Positions 35,537 through 45,092 of a DNA stretch of 64,000 nucleotides are shown piece after piece. The first letter of the stretch is position 1; every line of letters starts with the position of its first letter. This stretch comes from an uncultured Ignavibacteria bacterium. Its GTDB lineage: Bacteria > Bacteroidota > Ignavibacteria > Ch128b. The notes beneath the pieces were generated by a model, which worked only from the letters and a program-made list of their open reading frames with translations, was not told the DNA's origin and ran no database searches. The stretch covers positions 1-64,000 of the forward strand of contig CALDZP010000054.1 of the NCBI GenBank assembly GCA_937944105.1, given 5' to 3'. The position numbers were made by a program, and so were the translations under genes.

Positions 35537-36427
35537 ATGAAGAAATTCATTTTGATATTTATTTTAATGATTACTTCTCAAAAATTATGTGCGCAAGAGA
35601 TTGCAGCAAAAGTAACTGTAAATTTTGAATCACTTCAAACTGAATTCAGAGAAAAGCTTGTCAATTTTGCGACTCAAATAGAGGATTATATTAACAAAAA
35701 TAAGTGGACTGATATCAAATGGGAAGGTCCAAAAATACCTGTATCAATTCAGGTGTTTTTTAGAAGCGGAAATCAAGCTAATCGATATAATGCTCAAGTT
35801 GTAATTTCAAGTCAAAGACCAATTTACCAAAGTGAAAAAAGTACTTTGATGTTAAAATTAATCGACCCTAATTGGGATTTTATATACGAAAAAAATCAGG
35901 TATTACTATTTAATCCGAATTTATTTGAGCCACTTACGGGATTTATTAATTATTATATGTATATCATTTTAGGAATTGATTCAGATTCCTACGAAGAATT
36001 TGGTGGAAATAGATTTTTTAGTCAAGCACTTTCAATTGCATATCAAGGTGCCTCAAGTAATTTTTCGAATGGATGGATTCAGGGAGAAGGTTCATTCAAT
36101 CGAGTTGATTTTGCTGCAGAATATTTAAATGAAAAATATCAAAATTTTAGAAAAGCTTTTTATGATTACCATTATAATGGATTAGATTTAGCTTCAGAAA
36201 ATCCAGATTTACCATTAAAGAAGTTAGTTAATTTTGTTAAAGTCATTGAGGATTTAAGAGCAAAAGTTTTTTCAAGAAGTATTTTATTAAAAGTTTTTTT
36301 TGATACAAAATATCTTGAGTTTTGTGAATTGTTGAAGGATTACCCTGACAAATCCATATTCGAAAGATTAAAGAAGATTGATCCTGCCCACATTTCAACT
36401 TATGATAATTATATCATGAGAAAATAA
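35537..36427 (+). CDS. DUF4835 family exported protein (PorD-like)
   Basis: The 296-residue protein has a signal peptide (ILIFILMITSQKLCAQ) followed by the conserved DUF4835 pattern: QEIAAKVTVNFESLQ, then WEGPKIPVSIQVFF, YNAQVVISSQRPIYQSE and the LEPLTGFINYYMYIILG-type segment. In Bacteroidota this family has been linked with type IX secretion under the name PorD; I am moderately sure of that link. It is divergent from the PorV-like gene 73 bp away, which supports a secretion role. Confidence 0.8.
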   Translation: MKKFILIFILMITSQKLCAQEIAAKVTVNFESLQTEFREKLVNFATQIEDYINKNKWTDIKWEGPKIPVSIQVFFRSGNQANRYNAQVVISSQRPIYQSEKSTLMLKLIDPNWDFIYEKNQVLLFNPNLFEPLTGFINYYMYIILGIDSDSYEEFGGNRFFSQALSIAYQGASSNFSNGWIQGEGSFNRVDFAAEYLNEKYQNFRKAFYDYHYNGLDLASENPDLPLKKLVNFVKVIEDLRAKVFSRSILLKVFFDTKYLEFCELLKDYPDKSIFERLKKIDPAHISTYDNYIMRK

Positions 36428-36437
36428 ACAAATGATT

Positions 36438-37208
36438 TTACTTAAATGAAATAATAAAAGCATCAGGATAAAATTTAGAAATACTATCCTTTTTTAATTG
36501 AGCCTCTCTAATACTAGGAAATATTCCAACCACAGCTCGATAAATCCCAGAAGAAGGATGATATATAAAAAGTTCATTTTCGTTAACTTCGTCAATCTGC
36601 TCGATAAATATCTGGGCATTTTTAAGAGTAGAGAAACTTGCAATTTGAATCAAGTAACCATTCGATACATTTATTTTTTCATATTTCAAATTATAAAGTC
36701 CGAATTCCGAAATTGATATATTTTTTTGTTTTTCTAAGGGTTTTGTTCTGAATCTAAGATAAACCTCATGCTCTTCAAGTTCGGGAAGAGAAACTTCTTC
36801 TTGTGTTCTTCTTATATCTTTATTTTGTTGAATTTCAGTGGCAGGTGGATTTATTATCTCCAATTTGACATAAATTGATCCGGGACCAAGCATTCCAAGT
36901 TCTCGGGCGGCAGCATACGAAAGATCTATAATTCGATTTTTCATAAATGGGCCCCGGTCGTTAACACGGACAATCACAGATTTCTGGTTTGCAACATTTG
37001 TAACTTTAAGCCATGTATTAAATGGTAAGTAAGGATGAGCACATGTCAATTTATGCATGTCATAAACTTCACCACTGGAGGTGAGTTTACCGTGAAAATC
37101 TTCCGAATAATAGGATGCAAATCCTTCTGTTTCATATAATTTTTGAGAAAAAATATCAAATGCACATAAAAGTATTAACAAGAAAGAAAATTTAAATTTC
37201 TTTCTCAT
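36438..37208 (-). CDS. rlpA: RlpA-like septal lytic transglycosylase with SPOR domain
   Basis: RlpA cleaves peptide-free glycan strands of peptidoglycan at the septum. The 256-residue protein has a signal peptide and a double-psi beta-barrel domain (EGFASYYSEDFHGKLTSSGEVYDM; RVNDRGPFMKNRIIDLSYAAA). The conserved catalytic Asp sits in DRGPF. The C-terminal 75 residues form a SPOR domain (GYLIQIASFSTLKNAQIFIEQID) that binds denuded glycan. No lipobox is seen after the signal peptide, unlike many RlpA proteins. It overlaps the GNAT-like gene by 17 bp and converges with the DUF4835 gene. Confidence 0.88.
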   Translation of the reverse strand: MRKKFKFSFLLILLCAFDIFSQKLYETEGFASYYSEDFHGKLTSSGEVYDMHKLTCAHPYLPFNTWLKVTNVANQKSVIVRVNDRGPFMKNRIIDLSYAAARELGMLGPGSIYVKLEIINPPATEIQQNKDIRRTQEEVSLPELEEHEVYLRFRTKPLEKQKNISISEFGLYNLKYEKINVSNGYLIQIASFSTLKNAQIFIEQIDEVNENELFIYHPSSGIYRAVVGIFPSIREAQLKKDSISKFYPDAFIISFK

Positions 37209-38310
37209 ATATTCTATATTTTTTATAAAGTTCTCCTTGCATCATTAAAGCAGAACGATTCATCATTTCATTATCCTCTAAGACCCAACTTGCTTCACCT
37301 AAATGAATACCTTTCTTATGCGCTCTTTCAATAATTTCATAATAAAATACTGCATCAATACCTTTTTTCTGAAATTTAGGAATAATTCCAAGAGTTAGAA
37401 TTCTACACCAATTAATTTTTTTCCTATCAGTGAATAATCTAATAAAACCAAATGGGAATAATCTTCCATTTAATTTTTTGAAAATTTGATTATAATCTGG
37501 CATTGTTAAGGAAAAACCAACAAGCTCTCCATCTATTTCACCAAAAAGAACAAGATCAGGATCAACTATCACTTTTAAATCTTTAGCCATTGCATTAATT
37601 TCCTCATCAGTCATTGGAACAAAACCCCAATTAGGTTCCCATGCTTTGTTATAAACATATTTTACTTTTTTTAATTCGTTGTCAAAATCTTTCATATTAA
37701 GAGAAGTTAGTTTTAATTTATATCTTCTTCTTACAACATCCTGAACTTCATAAATCTTTTTAACTTTTGTAATTTTATCATATTCTAACTTGTATGCGTA
37801 AAGATCTTTAACTTTTTTCAATCCATAATTTTCACATAATTCTGGATAATAAGTTGGATTGTATGTCATTAAAAATCTTGGAGAATCATTAAATCCTTCA
37901 ATTAACATTCCATATTCATCATTGCTTGATGGATTAGCAGGACCTCGCATTGCATTTAATCCTTTGGATTTTAGCCATTGCTCTGCAGAATTAAATAAAG
38001 CATTTGCAACCTCTTGATCATTAATTGATTCAAAGAATCCAAAAAAGCCAACTTTATCTTGATGAACCTGATTATGCAAATCATTTTTAATTGCAGCAAT
38101 ACGACCAAGTATTTCACCATTTCGATAAGCTAAAAACATTTCCATCTCTGCGTGGCGATAAAATGGATGATTTTTTCTATCAAGAATTTTTTTTCTATCC
38201 ATAATCAAAGGTGGAACCCAATATGGATCATCTTTATAAATTTTCCATTGCATCTTGATGAAATTCATCAGTTCTTTTTTTGATTGAACGGTTTTAATTT
38301 TAATTGTCAT
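37192..38310 (-). CDS. GNAT-like acyltransferase, candidate bacterial ceramide synthase
   Basis: The 372-residue protein belongs to a family of GNAT-fold transferases of this length. It has the opening WKIYKDDPYWVPPL, the FFGFFESINDQEVANALF stretch, MRGPANPSSNDEYGMLIEGF in the middle and GIIPKFQKKGIDAVFYYEI near residue 325. The gene lies 18 bp downstream of the serine-palmitoyltransferase-like gene, with a GGAGC ribosome-binding site. In Caulobacter the bacterial ceramide synthase that N-acylates the long-chain base is, as I recall, an acyltransferase of this general kind near spt. The assignment depends on family resemblance plus context and is not proven. Confidence 0.6.
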   Translation of the reverse strand: MTIKIKTVQSKKELMNFIKMQWKIYKDDPYWVPPLIMDRKKILDRKNHPFYRHAEMEMFLAYRNGEILGRIAAIKNDLHNQVHQDKVGFFGFFESINDQEVANALFNSAEQWLKSKGLNAMRGPANPSSNDEYGMLIEGFNDSPRFLMTYNPTYYPELCENYGLKKVKDLYAYKLEYDKITKVKKIYEVQDVVRRRYKLKLTSLNMKDFDNELKKVKYVYNKAWEPNWGFVPMTDEEINAMAKDLKVIVDPDLVLFGEIDGELVGFSLTMPDYNQIFKKLNGRLFPFGFIRLFTDRKKINWCRILTLGIIPKFQKKGIDAVFYYEIIERAHKKGIHLGEASWVLEDNEMMNRSALMMQGELYKKYRIYEKEI

Positions 38311-38328
38311 TTAATATTGCTCCTGGAT

Positions 38329-39519
38329 TTATATTACTCCAAGTTCTTTACCTATTTTCTTGAAAGCATCTATTATAAAATCTAAATGTTCATCTTCATG
38401 AGTAGCCATATAAGATGTTCGAAGCATAGCCATATTTGGCGGTACACCAGGTGAGACAAAAGCATTGACAAAGACGCCAGCATCATAAAGCTTTCGCCAG
38501 AAAATGAAAGTTTTCATATCATCTCCAATAATAACAGGAACGATTGCTGATTGGTTTTCAACAATTTTAAAACCTAATTCTTTGAAAGCCGTTCTTATTT
38601 TTTGTGCGTTATATTGCAATTTCTGTATTCGTTCTGGTTCCTGTTCAAGGATATCCAATGCAGCAAGAGCGGCAGCAACAGAAGCCGGGGTTGGACTTGC
38701 ACTAAATATCAGAGCGGGTGCATGATGTTTTAAATAGTTTATTACTTTTGATTCACCAACAACAAAACCACCAAGTGAGGCGAAAGTTTTACTAAATGTT
38801 GCCATTGTTAAATCCACTTGAACTGAAAGATTGAAATGGCTGGCAGTTCCTCTTCCACCCTCACCAATAACACCAATTGCGTGTGCATCGTCAAGTAATA
38901 TTCGAGCATTATATTTTTTAGCTAAATCGACCATTTTAGGCACATCAGGTATGGTGCCCCAGGTGCTAAAAATTCCATCACTGACGATCAATTTTCCTGC
39001 ATCAAGAGGAAGTTTAGAAAGAACTCTTTCAAGGTCCTCCATATCATTGTGTTTGTAACGAATGACATCAGTCATCATAGCTTTTGCAATTAGATTTCCA
39101 GCAACAATACTGGCGTGGTTTTCCTTATCAGAAATTATATAGTCACCTTTCTGTGCAAGAACTGGAATTACACCCTGAGCAGCTTGAAAGCCGGTGCTAT
39201 AAAGAAGACAATCTTCTTTACCCATAAATTTTGCAAGTCGTTTTTCGAGTTCTATATGGAGATCTAATGTTCCAGTAAGATATCTTGAGCCGGAACAACC
39301 AGTTCCATATTTTTCAACTGCTTTGATTGCAGCTTCTTTTACTTTGGGATGGGCTGTTAATCCAAGGTAGTTATTCGATCCAGCCATTATTATTTTTCTA
39401 CCTTCTATTTTAACAACTGGACCTTCATTCTCTTCAATTGCTCTAAAGTACGGGTAATAACCTAAAGCTTTGACTTCATCTGCTCGGGTAAAGTTGTAAC
39501 ATTTATCAAATAAATCCAC
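38329..39519 (-). CDS. Serine-palmitoyltransferase-like PLP-dependent acyltransferase
   Basis: This 396-residue enzyme belongs to the alpha-oxoamine synthase family, which condenses an amino acid with an acyl thioester. It has SNNYLGL near residue 48, [13 protein letters not shown] near 72, the DDAH cofactor motif at 210-213, and the PLP lysine Lys244 in [14 protein letters not shown]. The N-terminal YYPYFRAIE and the overall pattern favour serine palmitoyltransferase (3-ketosphinganine synthesis) over glycine C-acetyltransferase or BioF. No threonine dehydrogenase or biotin gene is nearby. Translation starts at GTG after an AGGAGAT site. The acyltransferase gene follows directly. Confidence 0.8.
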
Positions 39520-39560
39520 TTTTTATATCTCCTATTTGTTCAACATTTTTCAATTGTTTT

Positions 39561-39568
39561 CAAATTTA
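39561..39568 (-). promoter_or_regulatory. Possible -7 box for the serine-palmitoyltransferase-like operon
   Basis: The minus strand reads TAAATTTG, matching TAnnTTTG, 42 nt before the GTG start. A clear TTG -33 element is not seen. It lies within the 109-bp divergent gap, near a second such box on the plus strand. Confidence 0.35.
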
Positions 39569-39586
39569 TGTAAATTCTACGAAAAA

Positions 39587-39594
39587 TAATTTTG
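39587..39594 (+). promoter_or_regulatory. Possible -7 box for the divergent reductase gene
   Basis: The plus strand reads TAATTTTG, matching TAnnTTTG, 35 nt before the ATG at 39629. A good ribosome-binding site AAAGGAG follows at 39615-39621. The -33 element is weak (TTTA about 20 nt upstream). Confidence 0.35.
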
Positions 39595-39628
39595 AAGTTA
39601 ATCATATGCAACTAAAAGGAGAACACAA

Positions 39629-40621
39629 ATGCAGGAAAAAATTATCTCACTTGTAACAGGTGCAAGTGGGTTTGTTGGAAGTCACTTAGTTGATAGATTA
39701 ATTGATTTAAGTCATAATGTTAGAATTATTGCTAGAAAAGAAAGTAGATTAAAGTGGATTGATTCTTCTAAAGTTGAAGTATTTCACTGTGATTATGAAG
39801 ATGTTAAGTCTTTAAAATTAGCAGTATCTAATGTTGATTATATTTTTCATGTAGCAGGTGTAATTAAAGCAAAGAAAAAAGAACAATATTATAAAGGTAA
39901 TGTAGAAGTCACTAAAAATTTGCTTAAAGCAGTTAATGACGCTAATGAAAATTTAAAGAGATTTGTTTTTATTAGTAGTCAGGCGGCAGCTGGACCAAGT
40001 CCATTTAATCATCCAAAAACCGAAGATATGGAATGTAATCCAGTAACGAGTTATGGTAGATCTAAATTAGAAGCAGAAAAGGTAGTTCGAAGTTATGAAG
40101 GGAGAATTCCTTTTACAATAGTAAGGCCATCAGCCGTTTATGGTCCAAGAGACCCGGAAATTCTTCTTTTCTTTCAAACTTTGAAAAAGGGTATTCAACC
40201 AATGGTTGGATTCGATGAAAAATATGTTTCTCTTGTTCATGTCAGTGATTTAATTGATGGAATTTTGTTATCTGCTTTTTCAGAAAATTCATTAAATCAA
40301 ACTTATTTTATTTCAAGCGAAAAAGGATATGGCTGGGAAGAAATTGGGAATATTTCTTCGAAAATTTTAGGCAAGAAAGTACTAAAAATCAGGATACCCC
40401 ATTTCATCATTTTTTTAGTCGCAGTAGTTTCACAAATCTTTAGTTACTTCAAGAAAGATGCAACGATTTTAAATGTGGAGAAAGCACGAGAAATGATTCA
40501 GAAAAGCTGGGTTTGTAGTGTTGAAAAAGCTAAAAATGAACTTGGATATTATCAAAAAATCGAACTTGAAGATGGAATAAAGCAAACGATTGAATGGTAT
40601 CGAAAAAATCAATGGTTATGA
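39629..40621 (+). CDS. NAD-dependent epimerase/dehydratase-family protein, candidate ceramide reductase
   Basis: The 330-residue extended SDR has the cofactor motif TGASGFVGSHLVDRL near residue 10 and the active-site pair Tyr142 and Lys146 in SYGRSKLEAE. A hydrophobic segment near residue 260 (FIIFLVAVVSQIFSYF) suggests membrane association, which fits a lipid substrate. In Caulobacter an SDR of this kind (CerR) reduces the keto group after N-acylation in ceramide synthesis. Its location next to the serine-palmitoyltransferase-like and acyltransferase genes, divergent and sharing a short promoter gap, supports that role. Sugar-nucleotide or 3-beta-hydroxysteroid-type chemistry remains possible. 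Confidence 0.65.
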   Translation: MQEKIISLVTGASGFVGSHLVDRLIDLSHNVRIIARKESRLKWIDSSKVEVFHCDYEDVKSLKLAVSNVDYIFHVAGVIKAKKKEQYYKGNVEVTKNLLKAVNDANENLKRFVFISSQAAAGPSPFNHPKTEDMECNPVTSYGRSKLEAEKVVRSYEGRIPFTIVRPSAVYGPRDPEILLFFQTLKKGIQPMVGFDEKYVSLVHVSDLIDGILLSAFSENSLNQTYFISSEKGYGWEEIGNISSKILGKKVLKIRIPHFIIFLVAVVSQIFSYFKKDATILNVEKAREMIQKSWVCSVEKAKNELGYYQKIELEDGIKQTIEWYRKNQWL

Positions 40622-41253: not shown

Positions 41254-42237
41254 ATGAATACAGGTTTTTCAATCATATCAAACTTTCTTTTTGATACTGC
41301 AAAAAAATATGGTTTTTATCTATTAAAGATTTTAGTTGGAACGGGATTAATTTTTTATTTAATCAATAAAATATCATTAAAAGAAATTTTTTATTCCTTC
41401 AATTCAATTAATCTTTTTTATTTTTCTTTCGCTGTTTTACTAAGTGTAGTCAACATTTTTTTACAATATTTAAGGTTGAAAACTTTATTAAGAAATGAAA
41501 TTAAAACTGTTAATAGGTATTCAATAATTCAATCTTTGTTTATTGGATTTAGTGGAGGTACATTTACACCTGCAAGAAGTGGGGAATATTTTCTGAGGAA
41601 ACTCCCACTTAAAGAATTTAAGTTATCATCTATTGTTACATTAACATTTATTGATAAGATGATGTTGTTAATCAATGTGATTTTCTGGGGAGCAATGGTA
41701 AGTTTTGGAATGATGATTTTTTATTATGGCGTCGATTATTATGTAACAGCATCATTATTTATAATTTTTGCTTCATTCTTTACTGCGTTCTTTTTAATTA
41801 TCTATTCAAAGAAATTTTACAATTATCTAAGAGAGATTAAGAATAGAATGAATTTTAAACTTCAAATTTTGAAAAAGTTGATTGAACCTTTCTCTGATTT
41901 GAATAATCAGTTGATTTCCAGGTTAATTTTTATTGGTTTCTTAAATTTTCTTGTAATAGTTGTTGAGTTTTCAATTATAGTTATTAGTTTTGACAGTCAT
42001 TTAAATTTTGGGTTATTACTTATAGCTGCTATAATGGTTTATTTTTCAAAAACATTAATACCTTCAATTACACTCGGTGAGATCGGAATAAGGGAGAGCG
42101 CTGCAATCTACTTTTTCGGACTTTTTGGATGTAATGAATCAATAGCATTTAGTAGTTCAATGATTTTGTTTTTTTTGAATTTGTTTTTGCCTTCTTTAGT
42201 TGGTTTATATTTTCTAATTAGATTGAAAAGGGTTTGA
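41254..42237 (+). CDS. Flippase-like membrane protein (lysylphosphatidylglycerol synthase TM/UPF0104 family)
   Basis: The 327-residue protein has about eight membrane helices and the family hallmark FIGFSGGTFTPARSGEYFLRK near residues 92-112. A C-terminal LIPSITLGEIGIRESAAIYFFG-type segment is also present. Members of this family (like AglD and YbhN relatives) act with glycosyltransferases in lipid-linked sugar transfer or flipping, though mechanisms differ. It is the first gene of a chain of overlapping genes. The 187-bp region upstream is AT-rich with no clear promoter match. Confidence 0.8.
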   Translation: MNTGFSIISNFLFDTAKKYGFYLLKILVGTGLIFYLINKISLKEIFYSFNSINLFYFSFAVLLSVVNIFLQYLRLKTLLRNEIKTVNRYSIIQSLFIGFSGGTFTPARSGEYFLRKLPLKEFKLSSIVTLTFIDKMMLLINVIFWGAMVSFGMMIFYYGVDYYVTASLFIIFASFFTAFFLIIYSKKFYNYLREIKNRMNFKLQILKKLIEPFSDLNNQLISRLIFIGFLNFLVIVVEFSIIVISFDSHLNFGLLLIAAIMVYFSKTLIPSITLGEIGIRESAAIYFFGLFGCNESIAFSSSMILFFLNLFLPSLVGLYFLIRLKRV

Positions 42238-42242
42238 TATAG

Positions 42243-43382
42243 TTGAACATTATTGCAATCTTTGATCTTGCTCTCAAATTATTATCTTTAATTTATCTTT
42301 TTTTCATTCTATTTCTAATAAGAGGCATCTCAAAAGTTAAAAATATAAATAGAACAAACAAGTTGAGAGCCTCTGTTATTGTTCCATTTAGAAATGAAGA
42401 ACGAAATTTAAGACGCACCATTGAATCAATTCTTAATCAAGATATTGAAAAGGATCGTTTTGAAATAATCCTTGTTGATGATAATTCAAAAGATAATTCT
42501 ATTGAATCAGTTAAGGATTTGATAGAAAATAACAATCTCAGGCTTATAAAACTTCATGATGGAATGGGGAAAAAAAAGGCTATTGAAACAGGAATTAACC
42601 AAGCGAAAAATGAAATTATAGTTACCACAGATGCGGACTGTTATCATCAAAAAGCCTGGTTGAGATCTTTGATAGAATGCTTTGATGAGGAAACTGGGTT
42701 TGTGGCAGGTAAAGTTGTTTACGATAATGTTAATAATTTTTTTGAAGAATTACAGAAGATTGAATTTGCAAGTCTTGTAAGTATTGGAGCTGCGTTAATT
42801 GGAAACAATATTCCTTTGCTTGCAAATGGTGCAAGCTGTGCTTATCGAAAAGATTTATTTTTTATGGTAGGTGGATTTTCAGATAATTTAAATTTAGCTT
42901 CTGGTGATGAAGAATTTTTAATGCAAAAAATTCACTTTGATGCTAAATATAAGATTAAATTTTGTTCAGCTGAAAACAGCTCAACATTTACTGAACCAAT
43001 AAAATCTTTTAGCAAATTTTTAAACCAGAGAAAAAGATGGGTCTCTAAAGTTCCGTTTTATAGAAATAAACTTTTGCTTCCGGTTTTAGTTTTACTTTAT
43101 CTTTTTTATGTGTTTTTTTTACCTGGACTTGCATTGATTTTCGTTAATTCAAATTTGAGCAAGACGATCTTTTTAATCTTTGGTTTCAAGTCGTTTATTG
43201 ACCTAATTTTTATGGTTAAGGGTTATAAATTACTTGGTTTATTAAAACGCAAATATGAGTTATTAAAATTAATTATTTTCTTTCCAATAGCTGAATTTTT
43301 TCATTTCATTTATATTTCTTTGATACCGATATTGAGTTTTCTTACGGGCTTTAAATGGAAAGGAAGAAAGTTTAAAAGATGA
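42243..43382 (+). CDS. Membrane glycosyltransferase family 2 enzyme (processive type)
   Basis: The 379-residue protein has an N-terminal membrane helix, then a GT2 catalytic domain with ASVIVPFRNEERNL, VDDNSKDNS, the DxD-type TTDADC and the QRKRW (QxxRW) motif of processive synthases. C-terminal helices follow (LLPVLVLLYLFYVFFLPGL). This layout fits cellulose- or chitin-synthase-like enzymes. It begins at TTG, 5 bp after the flippase-like stop. The product is unknown but is likely an envelope glycan. Confidence 0.85.
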   Translation: MNIIAIFDLALKLLSLIYLFFILFLIRGISKVKNINRTNKLRASVIVPFRNEERNLRRTIESILNQDIEKDRFEIILVDDNSKDNSIESVKDLIENNNLRLIKLHDGMGKKKAIETGINQAKNEIIVTTDADCYHQKAWLRSLIECFDEETGFVAGKVVYDNVNNFFEELQKIEFASLVSIGAALIGNNIPLLANGASCAYRKDLFFMVGGFSDNLNLASGDEEFLMQKIHFDAKYKIKFCSAENSSTFTEPIKSFSKFLNQRKRWVSKVPFYRNKLLLPVLVLLYLFYVFFLPGLALIFVNSNLSKTIFLIFGFKSFIDLIFMVKGYKLLGLLKRKYELLKLIIFFPIAEFFHFIYISLIPILSFLTGFKWKGRKFKR

Positions 43383-44011
43383 AATTTATTTTCATTGAAC
43401 CACCAAAAGTTGTTCGATTAATATTTAAAGATTTTATTTGGCAAAATTTACAGGATGAAGTACTCTTTACTTTTGATGATGGACCGTATCCAGGAGTAAC
43501 AGAAAATATTCTTGATGTTCTAAGGTCAAACAATATTAAAGGATTGTTTTTCCTTACGGGAAAAAATATTTCAGAAAATATGAATTTATTTGATTTAATA
43601 ATTGAGAATGGGCATTTTGTTGCAAATCATTCTTATTTTCATTCGAGAAAAAATTTGCTGATGAATTTAGAAGATTTTAAGAATGAAATTATGAAAACTG
43701 AAAATTTTTTAAGAAAGACAAAAAATTTTCAAAAATTTTTTCGCCCACCTTATGGTTTGATAAATTATAGAATGAAAAAAGTTTTAAATGAATTAAATTA
43801 TAAAATTATGATGTGGTCTTTATTAACTGAAGATTATTTGTCTGACTTTGAAATGGTTAAAAAAAATCTTGACAGGCATTTGAAGAATAATTCAATAATA
43901 GTTTTTCACAATAATCTTAAATCAGCTAAAATAATTGAAAGTTCATTACATTACTCAATAGAATTAATTTCGAAGAGAGGTTACAAAATTGGGAACACTT
44001 TCTGCTTTTGA
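43379..44011 (+). CDS. Polysaccharide deacetylase (NodB homology) protein
   Basis: The 210-residue protein has the full NodB catalytic set: TFDDGPYP (Asp33, Asp34), NHSYFH (His84, His88), RPPYGLINYR, MWSLLTEDY and VFHNN. It therefore should be an active metal-dependent deacetylase of N-acetylated sugars. No signal peptide is seen, so its substrate is probably a cytoplasmic precursor or lipid-linked sugar. It is coupled to both neighbouring GT2 genes by overlaps (4 and 23 bp). The nearby enzymes suggest it removes acetyl groups from the product they build. Confidence 0.87.
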   Translation: MKFIFIEPPKVVRLIFKDFIWQNLQDEVLFTFDDGPYPGVTENILDVLRSNNIKGLFFLTGKNISENMNLFDLIIENGHFVANHSYFHSRKNLLMNLEDFKNEIMKTENFLRKTKNFQKFFRPPYGLINYRMKKVLNELNYKIMMWSLLTEDYLSDFEMVKKNLDRHLKNNSIIVFHNNLKSAKIIESSLHYSIELISKRGYKIGNTFCF

Positions 44012-45092
44012 AACTCTTTTTTTAATTGCTATTTTATTTTATGTAGTTCAACAGATTATTTTTTTGATTGGATTTAATAAAAAAATTAAAACTAATTTAA
44101 ATTATGAACCAAAAGTTACAGTTATTGTAGCCGCAAGAAATGAAGAAGAAAACATAAGAAATTGTCTCGATTCCCTTGTTAAACTGGACTATCCTGAGGA
44201 AAAACTCGAAATAATTATGGTGGATGATTACTCTACAGATAATACTGGAAAAATCATTGATGAGTATTCTCAAAAATTTTCATTCATTAAAAAAGTGATC
44301 CCATCAGAAAAAGTAATTCCTAAACCTGGGAAAACAAATGCAATAGTTAATGGGATTAGAAACTCAAAAGGTGAAATTATTTTTACTACCGATGCTGATT
44401 GTATCGTCAAAAGTTCGTGGATTAAAACTCAGTTAAAATATTTTACAGATAATGTTGGAGTTGTAACTGGATTTACTTATCAAAATGCGTATTCGCAATT
44501 TACCGGTATGCAAAATCTTGATTGGGTTTATCTTTTAACAGTTGCAGCTGGCACAATTAATCTTGGTTTACCTTTGAGTTGTATAGGTAATAATATGGCA
44601 TATAGGAGAGACGCATATAATTGGGTGGGTGGTTATGAAAACATAAAATTTAGCGTAACTGAAGATTTTGCTCTCCTCCATAAGATTCATAAGCACACAA
44701 ATTATAAAATTGTTTTTCCGGTTGATCCAGATGGAATAAATCGTTCAGAACCATGTACAGACTTGAAAACTTTGTACAGACAAAAACATCGATGGGGAAT
44801 TGGTGGTCTTGATGCGCCATTTATTGGTTTTGTAATAATGTTCTGGGGATGGTTAAGTCATTTAATGATCTTATTGCAAATTTTCTTCATGACGAATTTT
44901 ACTTTATTGCTAACATTAATCAAGTTAATGAGTGATTTTGTTTTCCTCTTTATTCCGTTAAAGAAATTTAAGATGGTTAATCAATTAAAATATTTTATTT
45001 CATTTCAGATCTATTTTATCTTGTATGTTCTGATTTTACCATTCATTGTTTTTATTAATCGAAAAGTTATCTGGAAAGAAAGAGAATATTAA
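43989..45092 (+). CDS. Membrane glycosyltransferase family 2 enzyme (processive type), second of the pair
   Basis: The 367-residue enzyme has the same order as the other GT2: an N-terminal helix, VTVIVAARNEEENI, MVDDYSTDNTG, TTDADCIVKSSW and the QKHRW motif, with several C-terminal helices. Start TTG lies inside the deacetylase gene (23-bp overlap). The two GT2 enzymes share low-level similarity, mainly in motifs, so they probably have different substrates. Position implies they act in one pathway. Confidence 0.85.
   Translation: MGTLSAFETLFLIAILFYVVQQIIFLIGFNKKIKTNLNYEPKVTVIVAARNEEENIRNCLDSLVKLDYPEEKLEIIMVDDYSTDNTGKIIDEYSQKFSFIKKVIPSEKVIPKPGKTNAIVNGIRNSKGEIIFTTDADCIVKSSWIKTQLKYFTDNVGVVTGFTYQNAYSQFTGMQNLDWVYLLTVAAGTINLGLPLSCIGNNMAYRRDAYNWVGGYENIKFSVTEDFALLHKIHKHTNYKIVFPVDPDGINRSEPCTDLKTLYRQKHRWGIGGLDAPFIGFVIMFWGWLSHLMILLQIFFMTNFTLLLTLIKLMSDFVFLFIPLKKFKMVNQLKYFISFQIYFILYVLILPFIVFINRKVIWKEREY

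Follow-up and report, generated by a model that had tools for sequence, protein, structure and literature searches.

The ceramide cluster of Caulobacter has a published layout, CC_1165-CC_1154 (PMC11324152), and its reductase CerR is reported to be periplasmic. Two competing models exist for the order of the bacterial reactions, and the disagreement is acknowledged (PMC11087976). The genetic potential for a ceramide pathway has also been stated for 'Ignavibacter' in a study (PMC10667739, which cites Stankeviciute 2022 and Sohlenkamp & Geiger 2016) that correlates monoglycosyl ceramides with Ignavibacteria sequences, and a Black Sea study extended Spt-like proteins to 40 phyla. Because these genes and proteins were already reported, a ceramide pathway in this lineage is not new in kind. 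Here, we describe a locus from an uncultured Ignavibacteria bacterium that, judging from its sequence, very probably codes for the enzymes of all three core steps in bacterial ceramide synthesis. This set of three genes is conserved throughout the class, and some families have the first two enzymes as one protein.

Results

The genes of the locus and their neighbors within the window, that is, the whole stretch of 64,000 nucleotides analyzed, are listed in Table 1. The first-pass annotation had placed three ORFs here, with 109 bp between the PLP enzyme gene and the SDR gene, and both the ORF boundaries and this gap were found to be exact to the base. The GNAT-like gene was confirmed to lie directly downstream of the PLP enzyme gene on the same strand, and no biotin, threonine-catabolism, or sugar genes were present between the members of the trio, as had been claimed. 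The annotation had also assigned the PLP enzyme and GNAT genes to a shared transcript. Their orientation and close spacing are consistent with this, but the transcript does not seem to be limited to the two genes: because the rlpA-like gene overlaps the GNAT gene, the minus-strand transcript is probably longer. The genes for PorD and the RlpA-like protein adjoin the trio, and their order relative to Spt-GNAT is kept within the family. At 41254-45092, the window encodes a flippase-like LPG_synthase_TM protein and two GT2 glycosyltransferases with a polysaccharide deacetylase between them. Both GT2 proteins have secondary Pfam matches, of 37 and 53 bits, to Glyco_transf_21, a ceramide-glucosyltransferase-type family. 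These glycosyltransferase, deacetylase, and flippase-like genes were considered as head-group genes and set aside, their synteny with the trio being found only within the genus.

Table 1. Features of the putative ceramide locus and its neighbors in the window, with the fused loci of relatives
Feature	Position	Strand	Remarks
Type IX secretion protein PorD	35537-36427		221 bits vs cut-off 170 (NCBIfam)
rlpA-like gene	36438..37208	minus	Overlaps GNAT gene by 17 bp at GNAT 3' end
bCerS-type N-acyltransferase (putative), tandem GNAT fold, 372 aa	37192..38310	minus	18 bp downstream of Spt
Spt, serine palmitoyltransferase-type alpha-oxoamine synthase, 396 aa	38329..39519	minus	GTG start, PLP lysine K244
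Intergenic region between divergent Spt and SDR starts, 109 bp	39520..39628		Presumed site of both promoters; ORF gap
CerR-type extended SDR, probable 3-keto reductase, 330 aa	39629..40621	plus	Divergent from Spt
Fused Spt-GNAT loci			L115, L122, L130, L133, L137, L138, L148 (families f4, f11); L214, L226

The PLP enzyme was assigned by Pfam to the aminotransferase I/II domain, and its best PDB match was the S. multivorum SPT (3a2b/8guh; E = 2e-117). The best NCBIfam model was NF047600 SerpalmtaseCFB, the equivalog of Bacteroidota Spt, with 509 bits; this does not reach the cut-off of 640, and the window Spt is not assigned to this narrower equivalog. The annotation had described the enzyme as serine-palmitoyltransferase-like, which phylogenetic analysis bore out. 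In a tree of 33 sequences, it fell within the clade of all Spt references, which include S. multivorum 3a2b and a Sphingomonas Spt that is almost the same as the crystallized 2jg2, with a support of 98/95, whereas Kbl, BioF, ThAOS, and the oxoamine-synthase paralogues of the class itself were placed outside. The Ignavibacteria Spts formed a separate clade inside Spt. Grouping with Kbl or with BioF was rejected by AU tests (p = 2e-6 and p = 0.006, respectively), and the scores for both were below the NCBIfam cut-offs. A search of the window's genome with Spt as the query gave no further match at E ≤ 0.001, which suggests that this genome has just one alpha-oxoamine synthase, whereas most relatives in the class carry a separate Kbl-like paralogue besides Spt.

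The enzyme has YYPYFRAIE near its start and Lys244 within a 10-residue stretch further on, and residue mapping aligned this lysine to Lys244 of S. multivorum Spt. Comparison of the active sites, with residue roles taken from PMC10196870 and PMC9304779, indicated that N49, S78, and H135 of the window Spt are identical to Asn52, Ser81, and His138 of the S. multivorum enzyme, and S185, D210, H213, T241, K244, and R367 to Ser185, Asp210, His213, Thr241, Lys244, and Arg367. This set, which covers the PLP lysine, the stacking His, the Asp/His pair, and the Asn and Arg contacts, matches throughout. The sole change among the checked PLP- and substrate-contact positions was at Met271, which is Ile in the window Spt; the contact of Met271 in S. 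multivorum is made by the main chain (PMC10196870). The position of Lys281 in the cysteate enzyme SulA, a marker described in PMC9304779, is occupied by Ala274, and because of this replacement a sulfonolipid role of the SulA type is unlikely.

For the GNAT protein, no NCBIfam model covered the sequence, and a PDB sequence search gave nothing significant. Its AlphaFold model (pLDDT 92.7) predicts a tandem GNAT, and the closest solved folds were tandem GNATs; the lower-ranked matches included Fem-type aminoacyl transferases and a histidine acyltransferase in complex with N-myristoyl-histidine. In a tree rooted by midpoint only, the window protein grouped, with a support of 100/100, with the GNATs of Spt clusters, which are found in Sphingomonas, E. 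coli, Klebsiella, Pseudomonas veronii, Rubrobacter, and Streptomyces, the gene order in the latter two being Spt-GNAT-SDR, and next to the Spt of Aureispira. By this placement, it is orthologous to the acyltransferase of complete sphingolipid clusters, and the earlier suggestion of a ceramide-synthase-type GNAT is upheld by clusters from bacteria other than Caulobacter. The same branch separates the Spt-cluster GNATs from a more distant paralogue clade, about 30% identical, which is present in several class genomes (L149-L155) and in Bacteroides; the B. finegoldii member of this clade lies away from Spt. The CoA-binding loop of the C-domain is canonical in the window GNAT (QKKGID, within the motif PKFQKKGID) and degenerate in the proteobacterial orthologues (QFSRIG, QASRMA), a difference that perhaps reflects a different acyl donor.

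The SDR model indicated a confident extended-SDR fold, and the nucleotide-binding motif GASGFVG at residues 11-17 and the YxxxK motif (YGRSK) at residues 142-146 were intact. The hydrophobic segment noted by the annotation was located at residues 256-274 (mean hydropathy 1.91). The first Rossmann strand of the model starts from residue 6, which would be too close to the N-terminus for a classical signal peptide to precede it. In a search with a profile of six Spt-cluster reductases, the window SDR was the best match in its genome with 247.9 bits, followed by another SDR with 73.9 bits, and it was the only match in its own genome when the Sphingomonas reductase was used as a single query. With the latter query, the SDR orthologue was also the best match in each of seven other class genomes tried. 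The proposal of the divergent SDR as the candidate keto-reductase was, thus, strengthened by its similarity to reductases in the CerR position. The identity to the SDRs of proteobacterial and actinobacterial clusters was 26-32%, and a few unlinked SDR paralogues of relatives fell near the cluster SDRs in the tree. Extended SDRs are a versatile family, and this putative reductase is the least certain assignment of the trio.

To describe the conservation of the trio, we examined 41 genomes, namely, the window's own and those of 40 relatives, and found Spt in 41, GNAT in 40, and SDR in 41, the last count including one genome (G028) with a paralogue-level match only. A scan of the genome collection gave at least 582 stretches encoding relatives of the window Spt, and the best 80, which were analyzed, came from Ignavibacteria and allied MAGs, Melioribacter, Stygiobacter electus, and Kapaibacterium. 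Among these best 80 of at least 582, GNAT was directly downstream of Spt or fused to it in 64 of the 78 informative loci, the divergent SDR was present in 69 of 77, and the whole trio was together in 58 of 75, although the loci share kinship and the counts do not represent independent events. The three-gene linkage, which the annotation had named as a point to check in relatives, is accordingly a common arrangement among these loci, and the divergent orientation of Spt and SDR is kept. Because the PLP enzyme matches a solved Spt so closely and genome after genome of the class shows this arrangement, we dismiss chance resemblance.

Furthermore, two related families, f4 and f11, were found to encode Spt, a linker of 20-36 residues, and GNAT in one uninterrupted ORF of ~800 codons. 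The fusion was present in 5 of 5 genomes of one family and 12 of 13 of the other (17 of 18 in total), and the one genome lacking it is 67% complete; the genomes in which the fusion was first found also retain a separate GNAT copy. As the GNAT halves of the fusions fall into one clade (100/99) and the Spts of the two families are sisters in the tree, a single fusion event is likely to lie behind both. This Spt-GNAT fusion, which lies outside the window, looks new, and no description of an Spt-bCerS fusion was found in the literature searched, the coverage of which was incomplete.

Discussion

In the pathway that we propose, Spt would form 3-ketodihydrosphingosine by condensing L-serine and a long-chain acyl thioester, as its clade and active-site residues suggest; the tandem-GNAT protein would N-acylate this base to 3-keto-dihydroceramide, for which its orthology and genomic coupling argue; and the SDR, in view of its orthology and intact motifs, would reduce the 3-keto group to yield dihydroceramide. 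We infer the substrates, the product, and the order of acylation before reduction from sequence. The reading of the region as a ceramide locus, already put forward by the first-pass annotation, draws its support from clades, catalytic residues, and linkage, with bacterial clusters other than Caulobacter as references. Acylation first is favored by the Spt-GNAT fusion, because in a fused protein the keto base would reach the acyltransferase directly. In f4 and f11, one of which includes a Candidatus Kapaibacterium genome, we lean slightly towards a bifunctional 3-keto-dihydroceramide synthase that would both carry out the condensation of serine with an acyl thioester and N-acylate the keto base before its release, with acylation preceding reduction there. 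Joining the first two steps in one protein agrees with acylation first but does not prove it, since sphinganine could still be the substrate of the acyltransferase.

The same enzymes could work in the eukaryote-like order, in which the SDR first makes sphinganine from 3-ketodihydrosphingosine and the GNAT then acylates sphinganine. Such an order was proposed for Caulobacter by one group (PMC11324152), B. thetaiotaomicron has a known 3-ketosphinganine reductase (PMC9278070), and the lack of a signal peptide in the SDR model would allow the reductase and Spt to share the cytoplasm. We nevertheless regard this order as rather doubtful, if deserving of serious attention, in that the pair that is co-oriented, adjacent, and fused is Spt and GNAT, not Spt and SDR, and in that localization and knock-out data from Caulobacter favor acylation first (PMC11087976). 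It is unlikely, in turn, that Spt and bCerS are correctly assigned and the SDR is a nucleotide-sugar or hopanoid-type enzyme acting on another substrate. The top NCBIfam score of the SDR was indeed for HpnA, but its 146 bits are far under the cut-off of 368, and the folds matched by its model are mostly sugar epimerases, as expected for any extended SDR. The profile search disfavors the sugar-epimerase reading, since no other protein of the genome matches Spt-cluster reductases as well as the SDR; it is, moreover, the divergent neighbor of Spt in most of the informative loci among the best 80, and Bacteroides, Parabacteroides, and Prevotella, all of them genera that make ceramide, have related SDRs.

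With respect to the first step, use of another amino acid, by which the trio would make a 1-deoxy-ceramide (from alanine or glycine) or a sulfonolipid (from cysteate), is decidedly unlikely. The S. multivorum Spt does take alanine and glycine weakly (PMC10196870), and sulfonolipid makers occur in the phylum Bacteroidota (PMC9304779); however, the serine-contact residues are the same as in the former enzyme, and the latter role is opposed by Ala274. Scarcely credible is the reading of the PLP enzyme as a general alpha-oxoamine synthase, serving as Kbl or BioF, with the GNAT and SDR as unrelated neighbors. The breadth of the families and the absence of another obvious Kbl/BioF candidate in the genome could speak for it, but the AU tests, the separate Kbl-like paralogue in most relatives, and the conserved linkage and fusion with GNAT speak against it.

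The presence of the trio, mostly linked, throughout a widespread environmental class makes it plausible that ceramide is a regular membrane lipid there; no lipid data on Melioribacter or Stygiobacter were found in the literature searched. The trio also offers source organisms for environmental ceramides, which one study correlated with Ignavibacteria sequences (PMC10667739), and the Spt-GNAT fusions offer an independent way, through genomes, to approach the dispute over which of the last two steps comes first (PMC11087976).

Compared with known systems, the locus shares enzyme types with Caulobacter crescentus, that is, spt (CC_1162), cerS/bcerS (CC_1154), and cerR (CC_1164), by annotation and by synteny via Sphingomonas: the cluster of Sphingomonas parapaucimobilis, which consists of the reductase, an acyl carrier protein, Spt, LptFG, and GNAT, matches the published Caulobacter layout. 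In the window, by contrast, Spt and GNAT are adjacent, the SDR is divergent and has no evident export signal, and no LptFG genes and, unlike in proteobacterial clusters, no dedicated acyl carrier protein or acyl-ACP synthetase were seen beside the trio. The B. thetaiotaomicron 3-ketosphinganine reductase BT_0972 is likewise an SDR, with a substrate of the type proposed for the window SDR, but it is a ~31-kDa protein aligned to eukaryotic KDSRs (PMC9278070), whereas the window protein is an extended SDR of 330 residues. The YghO clusters of E. coli (L101) and Klebsiella (L106), composed of a fatty acyl-AMP ligase, SDR, acyl carrier protein, Spt, and YghO, hold orthologues of all three enzymes together, as in the window; they differ in the additional ligase and carrier protein, in the 34-36% identity of GNAT and Spt, and in the degenerate CoA-loop motif of the YghO C-domain. 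These two, the E. coli one in a PN43 plasmid record beside lptF/lptG homologues and the Klebsiella one in K. michiganensis, look like complete ceramide clusters, as does a cluster with the same five components in Pseudomonas veronii (L193); the three genera are seldom regarded as sphingolipid makers.

At the level of the first enzyme, the S. multivorum SPT (3a2b, 8guh) is ~48% identical to the window Spt and has all the listed active-site residues in common with it, with the differences that Met271 is Ile in the window and that the Ignavibacteria Spts are separate and under the NCBIfam cut-off for Bacteroidota Spt. At the level of the whole locus, Aureispira anguillae (Saprospiria), which belongs to a different class of Bacteroidota and whose trio is likewise annotated by homology only, has the identical arrangement on its plasmid pAUEa (L099), with the SDR divergent from Spt-GNAT and identities to the window trio of 64%, 45%, and 42%.
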